This document shows positions 3,082 through 9,912 of a stretch of 34,323 bases of DNA, one piece after another (position 1 is the first letter of the stretch; each line of letters begins with the position of its first letter). The position numbers were made by a program, and so were the translations under genes. The DNA comes from Euryarchaeota archaeon Ods01. Its GTDB lineage: Archaea; Halobacteriota; Halobacteria; Halobacteriales; Halorutilaceae. Under the pieces are notes generated by a model. That model was given only the letters and a program-made list of their open reading frames with translations. It did not search any database and had not been told where the DNA came from. The stretch lies in the NCBI GenBank assembly GCA_028751095.1, contig JAQZCZ010000011.1, positions 1-34,323 on the forward strand, written 5' to 3'.

Positions 3082-3156
3082 TGCTCCGTCGGGGATTTGA
3101 ACCCCGGTCATCGGCTCGAAAGGCCGAAATGATTGGCCGGACTACACCAACGGAGC
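3082..3156 (-). tRNA. tRNA-Glu (anticodon UUC)
   Basis: A 75-base cloverleaf on the minus strand. Acceptor GCTCCGT pairs with ACGGAGC and the discriminator is A. The anticodon stem TCGGC/GCCGA encloses CTTTCGA, giving anticodon TTC. The T-arm is CGGGG, TTCAAAT, CCCCG. No CCA is encoded. A TATA-like element (CTTATTG on the minus strand) lies at 3186-3192, about 30 bases upstream of the 5' end. It is the likely attachment site of the neighbouring integrase element, whose DNA adjoins its 3' end. Confidence 0.95.
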
Positions 3157-3220
3157 GCCTGCAGTTGCAGAATGCAGGGACGGCGCAATAAGAGTTTCCT
3201 TTGCCCGCCGGTATCACAAG

Positions 3221-3251: not shown

Positions 3252-3887
3252 ATGAAGGTAGCAGTTCTCGGAGGCACGGGAGAATTCGGTGGAGGACTCG
3301 CGCTACGTCTCGCAGACGCGGGGCACGAAGTCGTGGTCGGAAGCAGGGACGAGGCGGACGCACGCGAAGTAGCCGACGAGTATGCAGACGATACCGGAGG
3401 CGACGTATCGGGCGCGACGAACAGTGGCGCGGTGGACGACGCCGATGTCGCCGTTCTCGCCGTGCCGCCCGAGTACGCCGCGGATACGGCGGATGACGCA
3501 CTCAGTGGCTTCGACGGTATCGCGGTTACTCCGGTTGTCGGTATGTCGCGCGAAGACGGCGACTTCGTCTACACGCCCCCCAAGGAAGGTAGTTACGCGG
3601 CACGGATTCGAGACTCGCTTGACGACGACGTACCTCTTGCGGGTGCTTTCCACAACCTCGCCGCCGGAAAGCTCGCCGCTACCCACGTCGATATAGACGG
3701 CGACGTAGCCGTCTTCGGAGACGACGAAGCGAAAGACACCGCCTCTGAACTCGTCGAAGACATAGGTACGCGCGCCCTTGATGTCGGCGGATTCGGAGTC
3801 GCGCCGCAGGTCGAGGCTCTAACGCCGCTCCTCATTAACGTCGGGACGAAGAACGGTATCAGGGATGCCGGCGCTAAGTTCGTGTAA
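3252..3887 (+). CDS. npdG: NADPH-dependent F420 reductase (F420H2:NADP oxidoreductase)
   Basis: A 211-residue enzyme that transfers hydride between coenzyme F420 and NADP+ in the cytoplasm. The N-terminus MKVAVLGGTGEFGGG is the Rossmann dinucleotide loop. SRDEADAREVA just after strand two is where Fno enzymes recognise the 2'-phosphate of NADP. Later segments AVLAVPPEYAADT and GAFHNLAAGKLA match the family's NADP/F420 cleft. The length equals the family norm. The upstream in-frame ATG at 3201 lies before the TATA-like box and is rejected. It is the first chromosomal gene past the tRNA and stands alone. F420 is used by haloarchaea, though partner F420 enzymes are not seen here. Confidence 0.88.
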   Translation: MKVAVLGGTGEFGGGLALRLADAGHEVVVGSRDEADAREVADEYADDTGGDVSGATNSGAVDDADVAVLAVPPEYAADTADDALSGFDGIAVTPVVGMSREDGDFVYTPPKEGSYAARIRDSLDDDVPLAGAFHNLAAGKLAATHVDIDGDVAVFGDDEAKDTASELVEDIGTRALDVGGFGVAPQVEALTPLLINVGTKNGIRDAGAKFV

Positions 3888-3935: not shown

Positions 3936-4829
3936 ATGTCCGAGTACAGCCTTGATAACTCCGCCAAGACGTACCGGTACTACAGAAACGCCGTAGAACG
4001 CCACTGGGACCCGCACGAAATAGAACTCGACGAAGACCGCGAGGCGCTCGCGGCGTTCGAGTTTGAGGACGGCGAGGAAGGCTTCGGCTACTTCCGGCAG
4101 ACCCTCGCGCTGTTCGGCGCGGGCGAGGAGGCGGTAACCGAGGACCTCGCGCCTCTCGCCGTCGCACTGGAGGGTATCGAGGACCAGATGTTCGTGACGA
4201 CCCAGATGTACGAGGAGGCGAAACACGCCGACTTCTTCGACCGTTACTGGCGTGAGGTCGTGAATCCGGTCGAGGAGACGAAAGGATACGAGGTCACGTC
4301 GCCCACCGACGACCGTTTCTTCCCCGAGAACTACGACAGCCTCTTCGAGAGCAACGAGCGCGCGATGCGCCGCCTTCTCGACGACGACACCCCCGAAAAC
4401 CGCGTTAAGGCGCACGCCAACTACCATCTCGTTATCGAAGGTATACTCGCGCAGACGGCGTACTACGCTATACACAAGAACTTCAGCGAGGAGATAGACG
4501 ACTACCCGCATCTCCCCGGACTCGTCGAAGGATTCTCGAACATCAGGAGCGACGAGGGTAGGCACGTCGGATTCGGCATGCACAAGATTAAGCAACATAT
4601 CACCGAGGACGGTGTCGGCATCTCGGTTCTGAACGACACCGTGAACGACCTGATGGTATACACGAACGGTATACTCGTCGATACGACGGAGGGGGACGCG
4701 CCGGGTGTCGGACGTGACCGCCTCATGGAGTTCGCGTCGGAGAAACACCGCGAACGGTTGGAACAGATAACGAACGCCGACGCGGATATCCCTGACGTGG
4801 ACGAACTGGTGCGTCTCTCAGGAGACTGA
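3936..4829 (+). CDS. R2-like ligand-binding oxidase (R2lox-type ferritin-fold protein)
   Basis: A 297-residue ferritin-like di-metal protein. Metal ligands fit the ribonucleotide reductase R2 pattern: Glu64, Glu94 and His97 (EAKH), Glu168 (VIEG), Glu207 and His210 (DEGRH). Two further residues point to the R2lox subgroup rather than a true R2: Val67 lies three after the first ligand and Tyr163 lies five before Glu168. These are the positions that form the Val-Tyr ether cross-link beside a Mn/Fe centre in characterised R2lox proteins. No RNR large subunit is nearby, which also argues against a ribonucleotide reductase role. R2lox binds a long-chain fatty-acid-like ligand, and the genes that follow act on acyl-CoAs. 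The physiological substrate is not known for the family. Confidence 0.85.
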   Translation: MSEYSLDNSAKTYRYYRNAVERHWDPHEIELDEDREALAAFEFEDGEEGFGYFRQTLALFGAGEEAVTEDLAPLAVALEGIEDQMFVTTQMYEEAKHADFFDRYWREVVNPVEETKGYEVTSPTDDRFFPENYDSLFESNERAMRRLLDDDTPENRVKAHANYHLVIEGILAQTAYYAIHKNFSEEIDDYPHLPGLVEGFSNIRSDEGRHVGFGMHKIKQHITEDGVGISVLNDTVNDLMVYTNGILVDTTEGDAPGVGRDRLMEFASEKHRERLEQITNADADIPDVDELVRLSGD

Positions 4830-4878: not shown

Positions 4879-4886
4879 TTTATACA
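4879..4886 (+). promoter_or_regulatory. TATA-like box before the crotonase gene
   Basis: TTTTATAC lies about 30-37 bases upstream of the ATG at 4916. This suggests that the crotonase and the genes after it start a new transcript rather than continuing from the oxidase gene. Confidence 0.5.
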
Positions 4887-4915: not shown

Positions 4916-5767
4916 ATGTCTGAGGAGGAAGAGCAAGAGAACGACACGGTAGAGCCGGACGTGGACGGCGACGAGCTATCGAACGAGGACTTCGACGCGA
5001 CCGTGAGCGACGACGGCGCGGTCATACGTGCGACGCTCGACAGACCCGATAAGGGCAACTCGATAAACCAGAACATTCTGGAAGGGCTGAACGCGACGCT
5101 CGACGCCGCCGACGAGAGCGAACTCGTCCGTCTCGTCGTGGTCCGTGGCGCTGACGGCAAGTTCTGCTCGGGCGGCGACCTGAGCGAGATGTCGCGTCTC
5201 ATCAACGCCTCGACGCAGGAGTACCGCGACTACCTGTCGGGCATCTCGGACGTGATGGGTAAGATGCGTAAGACAGACGCCCTGACCCTCGCCGCGGTCG
5301 AGGGCTACTGTCTCGCGGGCGGAATGGGTATAGCGACCGCATCCGACTTCATCGTCTCGGCGGACGACGCGACGTTTGGCACGCCCGAGAAGGAGAGCGG
5401 TCTGTTCCCGATGCAGGTCATGGCACCTATCATGCGGACCGTCAACGAAAAGAAGGGTATGTGGATGCTGTTCACGGGCGAGAAGATAGACGCCGAGGAA
5501 GCCGAGGATATCGGACTCCTCTCGCAGACGTTCGACGCCGACAGCTTCGACGAGGAACTCAACGACGCCGTCGATAAGCTCGTCAACTCCAGCCCGACGA
5601 TGATTTCGATGGGTAAGGAGGCGTACTACAGCCATCTCGACATGGAGTTCGACGACCAGCTCGACTACCTCAAGGAGATGTTCTCGCTCCTCGCCATGAG
5701 CGACGACACGCGCGACGGTATGGAGGCGAGGATGATGCAGCAGGACCCCGACTGGAAGATTCGTTAG
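4916..5767 (+). CDS. Enoyl-CoA hydratase/isomerase (crotonase) family protein
   Basis: A 283-residue crotonase with an extra acidic N-terminal tail (about 25 residues). The oxyanion-hole segments are clear: FCSGGDLSEM near residues 83-92 and CLAGGMGIA near 132-140. Of the two catalytic glutamates of enoyl-CoA hydratase, the one in FGTPE (Glu158) is present. The position of the other is Gly138. With only one glutamate, the enzyme may be an isomerase, thioesterase or another crotonase chemistry rather than a standard hydratase. It lies between the R2lox gene and the beta-keto acid cleavage enzyme, 50 bases before the latter, suggesting a shared acyl-CoA pathway. The exact substrate cannot be inferred. 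Confidence 0.85.
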   Translation: MSEEEEQENDTVEPDVDGDELSNEDFDATVSDDGAVIRATLDRPDKGNSINQNILEGLNATLDAADESELVRLVVVRGADGKFCSGGDLSEMSRLINASTQEYRDYLSGISDVMGKMRKTDALTLAAVEGYCLAGGMGIATASDFIVSADDATFGTPEKESGLFPMQVMAPIMRTVNEKKGMWMLFTGEKIDAEEAEDIGLLSQTFDADSFDEELNDAVDKLVNSSPTMISMGKEAYYSHLDMEFDDQLDYLKEMFSLLAMSDDTRDGMEARMMQQDPDWKIR

Positions 5768-5817: not shown

Positions 5818-6744
5818 ATGGGAGATGACTCTGACATAGGCACCCATATGGGTGTTAAGACACAGCGTACAGTACGAGGAAACGACCCTGACAAAGCCGT
5901 CATCTCGGTAGCGATGACGGGCGCGATGACACTCAAGAGCCGGTGTCCGTCCGTCCCGTACACGCCGCAGGAGATAGCCGAGCAGGCGCAGGAGGCGCGT
6001 GAGGCAGGCGCTTCGGTTGCGCATATACACGCGCGCACCGAGAACGGTAGCCCGACGTTCGACACACAGACGTACCAGGAGATATACGACGAGGTACGTG
6101 ACCATACCGACATACTCATCAACTTCTCGACGGGCGCGCTCCACGAACCGCTTGAGTCGCGTATCGACTACATACAGGAGGTACAGCCCGATATAGGCGC
6201 GCTCAACATGGGTTCGATGAACTACGCCAAATGGTCCGACAATCAGGAGGACTATGCCTTCAACATGCTGTTCGAGAACCCGTTCGACGAAATCGAGGAG
6301 ATGGTTGAGGCGATGAACGAGGCGGGTGTCAAGCCCGAACTCGAATGTTTCGACACCGGACATATCGGTAGCATCCGTCCCCTCCTCAAGCAGGGAATAC
6401 TCGAACATCCGATACATTTCTCGATTATCATGGGTATTGTTGGAGGTATCCCTCCAACAGTCAACAACCTGATGAACCAGGTCCGCCAGCTACCCGACGA
6501 CGCCAACTGGCAGCTAATCGGAATCGGATACCCGACACAGTGGCCCCTTGTGAGCGCGGCGCTTTCGATGGGCGGAAACGTCCGTGTCGGCGTCGAGGAC
6601 AACTACTACATCAACCAAGACCGCGACAAGGCGACCAACGCCGAACTCGTCGAGAAGGCGGCGCGGATGGCGCGCGACGTCTGCCGCGAACCCGCGACGC
6701 CTGACGAGGCGGCGGATATAATGGGATTCGAGCCTAACAGGTAA
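5818..6744 (+). CDS. Beta-keto acid cleavage enzyme (BKACE, DUF849 family)
   Basis: A 308-residue TIM-barrel Zn enzyme of the family that includes 3-keto-5-aminohexanoate cleavage enzyme. These condense a beta-keto acid with acetyl-CoA and split it into acetoacetate and a new CoA ester. Zinc ligands His69 and His71 (HIHAR) and Glu260 (GVEDN) are present, as are AMTGAMT near the N-terminus and the GGIPPT loop. A ribosome-binding-like GGTGAG lies seven bases before the ATG at 5818. The gene follows the crotonase and precedes a small winged-helix protein by four bases, so it is probably in an operon. Substrate preference depends on side-chain-pocket residues that I cannot assign. Lysine-fermentation partners are absent, so the original kce function is unlikely. 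Confidence 0.88.
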   Translation: MGDDSDIGTHMGVKTQRTVRGNDPDKAVISVAMTGAMTLKSRCPSVPYTPQEIAEQAQEAREAGASVAHIHARTENGSPTFDTQTYQEIYDEVRDHTDILINFSTGALHEPLESRIDYIQEVQPDIGALNMGSMNYAKWSDNQEDYAFNMLFENPFDEIEEMVEAMNEAGVKPELECFDTGHIGSIRPLLKQGILEHPIHFSIIMGIVGGIPPTVNNLMNQVRQLPDDANWQLIGIGYPTQWPLVSAALSMGGNVRVGVEDNYYINQDRDKATNAELVEKAARMARDVCREPATPDEAADIMGFEPNR

Positions 6745-6748
6745 CCGA

Positions 6749-7015
6749 ATGACGGAAGAAGGAGTAGGCGGCGAGGAGTACTCAGACATTCTTGACGCCG
6801 AGATGGATATACGCGACGTGGTCGACGCCATCTGCGAAGAACGTGAGGACTCGAAGGTACGCCGCGAGGTAGCGATAGACGCGGCGGAAGCCGCCGGAAT
6901 CGACCGTGACGAGGCTTCGCGGTTCATGAACGAGTTCATCAGCACCACCGAAATCGTCGAACTTGACGACGGATACGTTCAGACGCGCCGGCACTTCGAC
7001 GAGAAGTTCGAGTAG
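6749..7015 (+). CDS. Small winged-helix protein (MCM C-terminal-like fold)
   Basis: An 88-residue acidic protein starting four bases after the BKACE stop codon. AGGT lies just before the ATG. The pattern is helix (DIRDVVDAICEERED), helix (RREVAIDAAEAAGI), recognition helix (DRDEASRFMNEFISTTEIV) and wing (ELDDGYVQTRR). It resembles the C-terminal winged helix of archaeal MCM, in which a short helix-turn-helix is followed by a paired strand wing. I cannot name a family. Position in the operon suggests a local regulator or an accessory of the surrounding acyl-CoA genes, but DNA binding is not certain for such acidic winged helices, which may also bind protein. Confidence 0.7.
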   Translation: MTEEGVGGEEYSDILDAEMDIRDVVDAICEEREDSKVRREVAIDAAEAAGIDRDEASRFMNEFISTTEIVELDDGYVQTRRHFDEKFE

Positions 7016-7063
7016 CCGGATTACAGGCGACAGCTATTTGTCGCGGTCCGACAACCTCGGAAT

Positions 7064-8119: not shown

Positions 8120-9829
8120 CTAGAACAGGACGGTGCCGTGGTGACGGTCTATCTCGTTACGTTCCTTGTCCTCAAAGACACGGAACCGCGCCTCTAGCTG
8201 TTCGCGGAGGTCGCCCGCCGGAACGAGTTCGTCAACCTCCATCTGGCTCGCCTGCTTCCGTATGTCGATGTACTTGTCGTACTCCTGCTTGAACATCTCC
8301 TTCGTCGATTCGAGGGCGTCACCCTCCATCTCTTTGAGCTTGTCACCGAACAGGGCATGAACCGCCGCTTCGGGACCCATGACGGCGATTTCTGTCGATG
8401 GGAGCGCGAGAACCTCGTCGGGACCGAACGAGGGACCCGCCATCGCGTAGATACCTGCGCCGTACGCCTTGCGGGTCAGAACCGAAATCTTGGGGACCTG
8501 TGCGTTCGAGGTCGCGTAGATGAACTTGCGTCCGCGACGGAGAACGCCTTCCTGCTCAACCTTCGTACCGACCATGAATCCCGGCGTGTCACAGAGGTAG
8601 AGGAGGGGGATGTTGTATGCGTCGCAGGTCCAGACGAATCCCGAAGCCTTGTCGGCGGCGTCGGGGAAGATAGCGCCTCCGTTGACGTTGGGCTGGTTGG
8701 CGACGACCCCGACAGGGCGTCCGGCGATACGTCCTATACCGGTCACGATTTCCTGTCCGTACTCGGGCTTCATCTCCTGCCACGAGCCGCGGTCGATGAG
8801 ACGTTTGATGACCTCGTTGACATCGTAGTCCTTCTGCGACTTTTCGGGGATTACGGCGTCGAGACCCTTGGGGTTGAGTTCGGGCTGTTTAGGCTCCTTC
8901 CTCTTGGGCTTCTGTCGGAAGTTCTGCGGCAGGTAGTTGAGAACCTGCTTCGTCTTCTCGACAGCCTCCTCCTCGTCCTGTACGACGATATCGCAACTGC
9001 CGGAGTGCTGCGAATGCACGTCCGCGCCGCCGAGTTCCTGCATATCAACGCTCTCGCCTATCATTGCCTCGACGATACGTGCGCTCGCTATCGCCATCGA
9101 ACCCATGTCCTCGACCATCACGAGGTAGTCGCAGAAAACAGGCGTGTAGGCGCTTCCCGCGATATCGGGACCGTACAGGACGCCTATCTGCGGAATCTTG
9201 CCCGACATCCTGCACTGGTTGTAGAACATCTTGCCGCCGGTGTAACGGTCGGCGTGCGTATCACCGGGTTCGCGTTCCTCCTGATTGAGACGCGCGCCCG
9301 CCGAGTCGATGAGACGGACCATCGGAACGCCCAGACGCATCGCCTTCTCCTGTATCCGTATAATCTTCTCCGCCCCGTTCTGTCCAAGCGTACCCGCCTT
9401 GACGGTGTAGTCGTTGGCGGTGAAACAGACCTTACGTCCGTCTATCTTGCCGACGCCCGTGATAACGCCGTCGGCAGGGAGTTCGTCGTCCTCGTTCGAG
9501 AACGAAGCAAACGTGCCGTCCTCGAACTCGATTTCGTCGAACAGCAGGTCAAGGCGCTCGCGGACGAACAGTTTGTCGAGTTCCTCAAGCTTCTCCTTCT
9601 TGTCCTCCTTCCTGCCCTTCATTATCCCCTCGATATCCTCGCGGAGACGTTCCTCGCGTTCGGTGACTACGACGCCCTCGTCGTCCCAGTCCTCCTTCTC
9701 GCCTGCCGAGGCGACGGTGGAGCCGTCCTCGGACACCATCTCGACGGGCTTTCCAAGATGTTGCGAGACAGCGGCGACGACAGCGCGTGCCATCTCCTCG
9801 TCGTCGGCGTCTTCTACGTTTATCTTCAT
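8120..9829 (-). CDS. Acyl-CoA carboxylase carboxyltransferase subunit (PccB-like) with N-terminal extension
   Basis: A 569-residue carboxyltransferase of the propionyl-/acetyl-CoA carboxylase beta type, which moves CO2 from carboxybiotin to an acyl-CoA. Family segments are clear: LIDSAGARLNQ, the oxyanion region GPDIAGSAYTP, GGADVHSQHSG, then the second half with GRPVGVVANQPNVNGGA, CDTPGFMVG, RKAYGAGIYAMAG and GPEAAVHALFG. About 55-60 residues precede the normal start of the subunit: an acidic segment, then EEMARAVVAAVSQHLGKPVEM, reminiscent of small accessory subunits of such carboxylases. The ATG at 9829 was chosen because the extension to 9880 is hydrophobic and out of character. No biotin carboxylase or biotin carrier gene is in the window, so partners must be elsewhere. 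Confidence 0.88.
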   Translation of the reverse strand: MKINVEDADDEEMARAVVAAVSQHLGKPVEMVSEDGSTVASAGEKEDWDDEGVVVTEREERLREDIEGIMKGRKEDKKEKLEELDKLFVRERLDLLFDEIEFEDGTFASFSNEDDELPADGVITGVGKIDGRKVCFTANDYTVKAGTLGQNGAEKIIRIQEKAMRLGVPMVRLIDSAGARLNQEEREPGDTHADRYTGGKMFYNQCRMSGKIPQIGVLYGPDIAGSAYTPVFCDYLVMVEDMGSMAIASARIVEAMIGESVDMQELGGADVHSQHSGSCDIVVQDEEEAVEKTKQVLNYLPQNFRQKPKRKEPKQPELNPKGLDAVIPEKSQKDYDVNEVIKRLIDRGSWQEMKPEYGQEIVTGIGRIAGRPVGVVANQPNVNGGAIFPDAADKASGFVWTCDAYNIPLLYLCDTPGFMVGTKVEQEGVLRRGRKFIYATSNAQVPKISVLTRKAYGAGIYAMAGPSFGPDEVLALPSTEIAVMGPEAAVHALFGDKLKEMEGDALESTKEMFKQEYDKYIDIRKQASQMEVDELVPAGDLREQLEARFRVFEDKERNEIDRHHGTVLF

Positions 9830-9912
9830 GCTTGAGGAACAAAGCCAAGTCAAGAATATCATACTACCGGTTTTCGACACCGTTTAATCTGTGGTCAGCG
9901 CCACGTATCCTC

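Follow-up and report, generated by a model that had tools for sequence, protein, structure and literature searches.

An R2lox-type oxidase from a deep haloarchaeal branch, encoded beside an acyl-CoA gene cassette

We analysed a stretch of 34,323 nucleotides from the genome of Euryarchaeota archaeon Ods01 (contig JAQZCZ010000011.1), hereafter the window. It carries a gene for an R2lox-type oxidase, which lies among the following genes and features:

3252..3887, + strand: npdG/fno, F420H2:NADP+ oxidoreductase (TIGR01915, 176.8 bits, above the cut-off of 149.8)
3936..4829, + strand: R2lox-type oxidase gene, 297 aa, ATG to TGA, with exact open reading frame coordinates
4879..4885, + strand: TATA-like box TTTATAC, about 35 nt before the crotonase ATG, as read from the sequence
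4916..5767, + strand: crotonase-family protein (ECH; enoyl-CoA hydratase/isomerase; PF00378, 3.9e-45)
5818..6744, + strand: beta-keto acid cleavage enzyme (BKACE; PF05853, 4.2e-94)
6750..7016, + strand: small protein of about 88 aa
7064..7867, + strand: SDR, 2,4-dienoyl-CoA reductase-like (NF005811, 7.2e-61, below cut-off; PF13561, 2.1e-52)
8120..9880, - strand: acyl-CoA carboxylase/decarboxylase carboxyltransferase subunit (TIGR01117, 3e-122, below cut-off)

The npdG gene, whose likely start is the ATG at 3252 (the mechanical reading frame opens at 3201), ends 48 nt upstream of the R2lox gene. The carboxyltransferase gene is convergent with the cassette and is also found near BKACE in other genomes. 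The original prediction had named a crotonase, a BKACE and a dienoyl-CoA-reductase-like SDR as the neighbours, and the profile matches agree. Further left, a tyrosine-recombinase-like reading frame (1833-2939, - strand; Phage_int_SAM_4) lies beside a tRNA-Glu gene (3082-3156, - strand), and GC content is mostly lower leftward of the two; this is probably an element integrated at tRNA-Glu, and a search within the window found no second copy of the tRNA-Glu 3' end.

The residues of the 297-aa protein follow the layout E64-x2-V67 ... E94-x2-H97 ... Y163-x4-E168 ... E207-x2-H210, which aligns with E69/V72/E102/H105/Y162/E167/E202/H205 of Geobacillus kaustophilus (Gk) R2loxI. The metal ligands are E64, E94, H97, E168, E207 and H210, accompanied by V67 and Y163, F101, A172 and Y176. 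Both the six ligands and the placing of Val67 and Tyr163 at the positions of the ether cross-link pair (Gk V72/Y162) had been proposed at the outset, with loss of the pair in close homologues named as evidence to the contrary. None of the 108 full-length clade members that we compared departs from the six ligands, V67, Y163 or F101, and 104 have Ala in the A172 column. The corresponding Gk residue, A171, lines the R2lox fatty-acid tunnel, is Phe in ribonucleotide reductase (RNR) R2, and is a published discriminator between R2lox and R2; in six true haloarchaeal R2/R2c sequences, the column of Tyr163 holds Phe and that of Ala172 holds either Phe or Leu. F101 occupies the site of the R2 radical Tyr, so that the radical Tyr of classes Ia and Ib is absent. 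The protein also does not group with R2c and has no Phe at the A171 and Y162 sites, where R2c carries it.

The best profile matches to the protein were the NCBIfam R2lox models, down to 2.7e-46. None of their curated cut-offs was passed (the best, NF006200, gave 158.3 bits against 194), which reflects a limit of models evidently built on other branches and not the absence of a defining feature. Solved R2lox structures match the protein at the sequence level at 1.1e-27. When an AlphaFold2 model (pLDDT 84.5) was submitted to Foldseek, the predicted fold matched at 2.9e-10, with R2lox as all of the top 34 PDB matches and R2c next at 9e-6. Since the NCBIfam models, the solved structures and Foldseek all match, these are not chance similarities.

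To place the protein, a tree was built from 60 sequences, including the solved R2lox of M. tuberculosis, G. kaustophilus, Saccharopolyspora and Sulfolobus and the six true haloarchaeal R2/R2c proteins. A split with support 96/94 divides all R2lox-like sequences from R2/R2c, and the window protein, for which a position inside true R2 would have spoken against the original prediction, fell outside R2. It falls among 40 rows that form a haloarchaeal branch (support 94/97, and 99/97 when the tree had 76 rows), sister to a group of the characterised R2lox and a second haloarchaeal clade. Its branch is thus a deep haloarchaeal one, separate from the characterised R2lox.

Comparison with individual systems gives the same picture. 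Gk R2loxI (PDB 4HR0) has counterparts in the window protein for all ligands, V72/Y162, A171 and Y175 and is among the best matches to the predicted fold (TM about 0.76-0.83, the closest chains), but shares only about 28% identity and lies outside the haloarchaeal branch. The R2lox of M. tuberculosis (Rv0233, PDB 3EE4/4AC8) and Saccharopolyspora (7QBP) likewise share the ligand set, the cross-link pair and the fold, but at 26-27% identity and with other gene neighbours. Sulfolobus acidocaldarius SaR2lox I and II (6QRZ, 7QBK) are archaeal R2lox with the same active site, yet they cluster with bacterial R2lox and stand apart from the haloarchaeal branch. Class Ic R2 (Chlamydia trachomatis NrdB, 1SYY) and a set of haloarchaeal R2c-like proteins (L098-L101) share the Mn/Fe-type fold and Phe at the radical-Tyr site; class Ic R2 differs in its weaker fold match (9e-6), and the haloarchaeal examples have Thr at the Val67 site, Phe at the Tyr163 site and Phe at A172. 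At least one haloarchaeal R2c-like gene adjoins a class I large chain, the L098 copy lying directly after it.

In public records, annotated haloarchaeal relatives are named as RNR beta chains, for example "ribonucleotide-diphosphate reductase subunit beta", because PF00268 (RNR small chain) passes its own gathering score (42.7 against 33.6 bits for the window protein) while the R2lox models fall below theirs. The expectation that the protein would be labelled an RNR beta chain, and misleadingly so, is therefore borne out for these relatives. Apart from this Pfam match and the names themselves, little speaks for a class I RNR small subunit. In the host assembly (1.87 Mb, 88.7% complete) we found no class I large chain; the sole RNR large chain found was the class II enzyme NrdJ (TIGR02504, 708.6 bits against a cut-off of 400), and the R2lox-like proteins are consequently left without a class I partner in the assembly. 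The residues point the same way (F101 in place of the radical Tyr; Tyr163 and Ala172 at sites that R2 fills with Phe or Leu), as do the separation from haloarchaeal R2a and R2c-like proteins in the tree and the number of R2lox-like genes, seven or more in a genome of 1.9 Mb. We therefore reject the RNR beta chain reading, whose probability we regard as close to nil, and conclude that the window gene almost certainly encodes a true R2lox. The host NrdJ gene (L068:991-5262) carries an intein.

Of the R2lox-like genes found in the host, four belong to the window clade, and two that stand in tandem on contig 21 belong to the second clade. A divergent seventh R2-like gene is split over contigs 6 and 46 (G000 C6:1-480 and C46:1-756; L008, L007); its two pieces share an identical 47-aa overlap and have relatives in another genome (L107 and L113 in G245). 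The window R2lox and its Halorutilus salinus counterpart share 85% identity.

Next, we asked how far the neighbourhood is conserved. The order npdG-R2lox-ECH-BKACE-small protein-SDR, with the convergent carboxyltransferase, recurs in H. salinus (L009) and in another Halorutilaceae genus (L134); npdG-R2lox-ECH-BKACE is thus found in three Halorutilaceae genomes in all. The adjacency of npdG and R2lox and the small protein (87-100 bits) are kept in both other loci. In a genome of another family (G073, L169), the same cassette is followed directly after SDR by an R2lox of a different branch, an independent adjacency in which BKACE is 63%, SDR 64% and ECH 52% identical to the window proteins. The ECH-BKACE pair forms a conserved unit in 21 of the 244 sampled genomes of the haloarchaeal class, and crotonase orthologues occur in 22; the pair (L204-L221, L169) often stands with an SDR and a convergent acyl-CoA carboxyltransferase, and its pathway is possibly the breakdown of branched or isoprenoid acids. 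R2lox was present in all 21 genomes with a BKACE orthologue, whereas in the full set of 244 it occurs in 82 (p 1.7e-11 when genomes are counted and 1.8e-4 when genera are counted, both optimistic values inflated by relatedness). The idea that the acyl-CoA neighbours hint at function holds, with the exact neighbourhood confined to Halorutilaceae and one adjacency of R2lox and cassette elsewhere.

The adjoining acyl-CoA genes need not form one operon with R2lox. Each of the three Halorutilaceae loci has a TTTATA-type box some 35 nt ahead of the ECH start, and by this sequence reading the ECH operon is probably transcribed from a separate promoter. Because the box precedes ECH in three genomes, a single npdG-R2lox-ECH-BKACE operon is not established.

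Acyl-metabolism genes recur beside other R2lox branches, in different settings. On pHME505 of Haloferax mediterranei (L130:4971-10593), an R2lox gene annotated as hypothetical adjoins a gene for a zinc-type (MDR) NADPH oxidoreductase, followed by genes for an acyl carrier protein (ACP), ketoacyl synthase, holo-ACP synthase, malonyltransferase and FabG. The ACP/ketoacyl-synthase gene set, a haloarchaeal type-II-like acyl synthase set, lies near R2lox in eight loci (L130, L133, L149, L153, L236-L239), and three members of this sub-branch (L130, L149, L150) have Gly at 172 and Phe at 176. Earlier work regarded archaeal ACP systems as rare and as acquisitions from bacteria. A search of the host genome (88.7% complete) found no PP-binding ACP, and R2lox as a marker of an ACP cluster was accordingly rejected for the window organism. 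In Halostagnicola larsenii, R2lox lies in a beta-oxidation cluster, amid genes for an acyl-CoA ligase, a crotonase, a 3-hydroxyacyl-CoA dehydrogenase, a thiolase and two acyl-CoA dehydrogenases. A gene for a CoA-transferase of family III directly follows R2lox in Natrinema and relatives; in Halococcus and others, R2lox is followed by PhaC (PHA synthase). The order in Rhodococcus opacus is alcohol dehydrogenase, R2lox, and then reductase, ferredoxin, aldehyde dehydrogenase and fatty acid-CoA ligase.

Across 60 non-redundant loci, a gene of our acyl panel lay within two genes of R2lox in 17 and was absent in 43. A first enrichment test with this panel gave p 0.0008 and is biased, as the families were picked from the neighbourhoods themselves; a less biased Pfam count of nearest versus distant neighbours gave 11 versus 4 of 114 (p 0.053), which is borderline. 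We therefore do not claim a general enrichment of acyl genes beside R2lox. Candidate domain fusions in long open frames (up to 806 aa) were also set aside, since their N-terminal extensions are not acidic and resemble GC-rich read-through.

What is known of R2lox chemistry frames the interpretation: the protein has a fatty-acid ligand, and its centre reduces O2, makes the cross-link and is capable of two-electron oxidations. The most likely function of the window protein is to hydroxylate or desaturate an acyl or alkyl chain in an O2-dependent reaction. Its four-helix bundle would bind a dinuclear Mn/Fe or Fe/Fe centre, activate O2 and form the Val67-Tyr163 ether cross-link within itself; it would then carry out a two-electron oxidation, by hydroxylation or desaturation, on a long acyl or alkyl chain bound in its hydrophobic tunnel. 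The oxidised product would pass into acyl-CoA metabolism. In the window, the probable route is the crotonase-BKACE-SDR(-carboxyltransferase) cassette, and the nearby npdG may contribute NADPH/F420 redox supply. For the window protein, we infer the metals, the cross-link, turnover, the substrate and the electron donor from this framework. Acyl or alkyl oxidation as the biological role seems to us the better bet. Against it count the 43 loci with no panel gene nearby, the borderline Pfam comparison, the probable separate promoter of the ECH operon, the relatedness behind the genome co-occurrence, the nature of npdG as a common housekeeping gene, and the published alkane assay, in which crude lysates were used and a metal-site mutant lost little activity. 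To the whole explanation, a true R2lox whose acyl- or alkyl-chain oxidation feeds acyl-CoA metabolism, we assign a probability of roughly 0.62.

Two other readings also accept a true R2lox. The neighbours could be incidental and the role a different one, for example in oxidative stress or in metal/O2 protection, with the fatty acid just a structural ligand. The promoter-like box before the crotonase genes, the majority of relatives with no adjoining acyl gene and the weak general enrichment fit such a reading, which is at odds with the four acyl-metabolism settings found across branches, two of them tight same-strand arrays, and with the presence of R2lox in every sampled genome that has the BKACE cassette; we consider it unlikely, though by no means negligible. 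The protein could also be, more narrowly, an alkane-specific monooxygenase (a terminal hydroxylase) as proposed for Gk R2loxI, with the nearby genes degrading the resulting fatty acids; this is a narrower form of the acyl/alkyl explanation, and the confidences of the two overlap. Alkane loss has been reported with crude lysates of Gk R2loxI, with a metal-site mutant keeping most of the activity, and hexadecane induction of a haloarchaeal (Halorientalis) R2lox is cited in that study (primary source, Kumar 2020). The Rhodococcus gene order, with its ferredoxin and its alcohol and aldehyde dehydrogenases, suits an alkane pathway as well. The window cassette, in contrast, has no alcohol or aldehyde dehydrogenase and no adjoining acyl-CoA ligase, BKACE and SDR are not alkane-pathway markers, and the biosynthetic ACP clusters do not suit alkane breakdown, so that we rate alkane specificity slightly lower still than incidental neighbours. 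The original prediction had called the functional hint rare, which it is not: other R2lox branches and the published Gk R2loxI alkane report point in the same direction as the acyl/alkyl explanation.

A more speculative proposal is that R2lox proteins of the haloarchaeal branch are acyl-thioester oxidases (desaturases or hydroxylases), acting on acyl-CoA or, in the ACP/ketoacyl-synthase clusters such as that of Haloferax mediterranei, on acyl-ACP. We offer it tentatively, as the less probable case. If true, these proteins would be archaeal functional counterparts, with Mn/Fe chemistry, of the soluble acyl-ACP desaturases, and they would occur in a domain whose fatty-acid synthesis was long considered independent of ACP.

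The window protein adds a member to the established R2lox family: earlier work recorded R2-like genes of this type in some Halobacteria (PMC5134839), and an alkane role of a bacterial R2lox is already published. The literature that we searched appears not to describe how deep the haloarchaeal branch is or how many copies it comprises, the strict pairing of the BKACE cassette with R2lox, or the association of R2lox with haloarchaeal ACP/ketoacyl-synthase clusters. Haloarchaea hold an unrecognised and much-duplicated R2lox branch under a wrong name, several sub-branches of which sit in well-defined acyl clusters, some of them in the culturable Haloferax mediterranei, Halostagnicola larsenii and Haloterrigena turkmenica. 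The cellular role of R2lox has been open since its discovery, and acyl clusters in culturable species turn the question of its substrate into one of gene deletion and lipid analysis.
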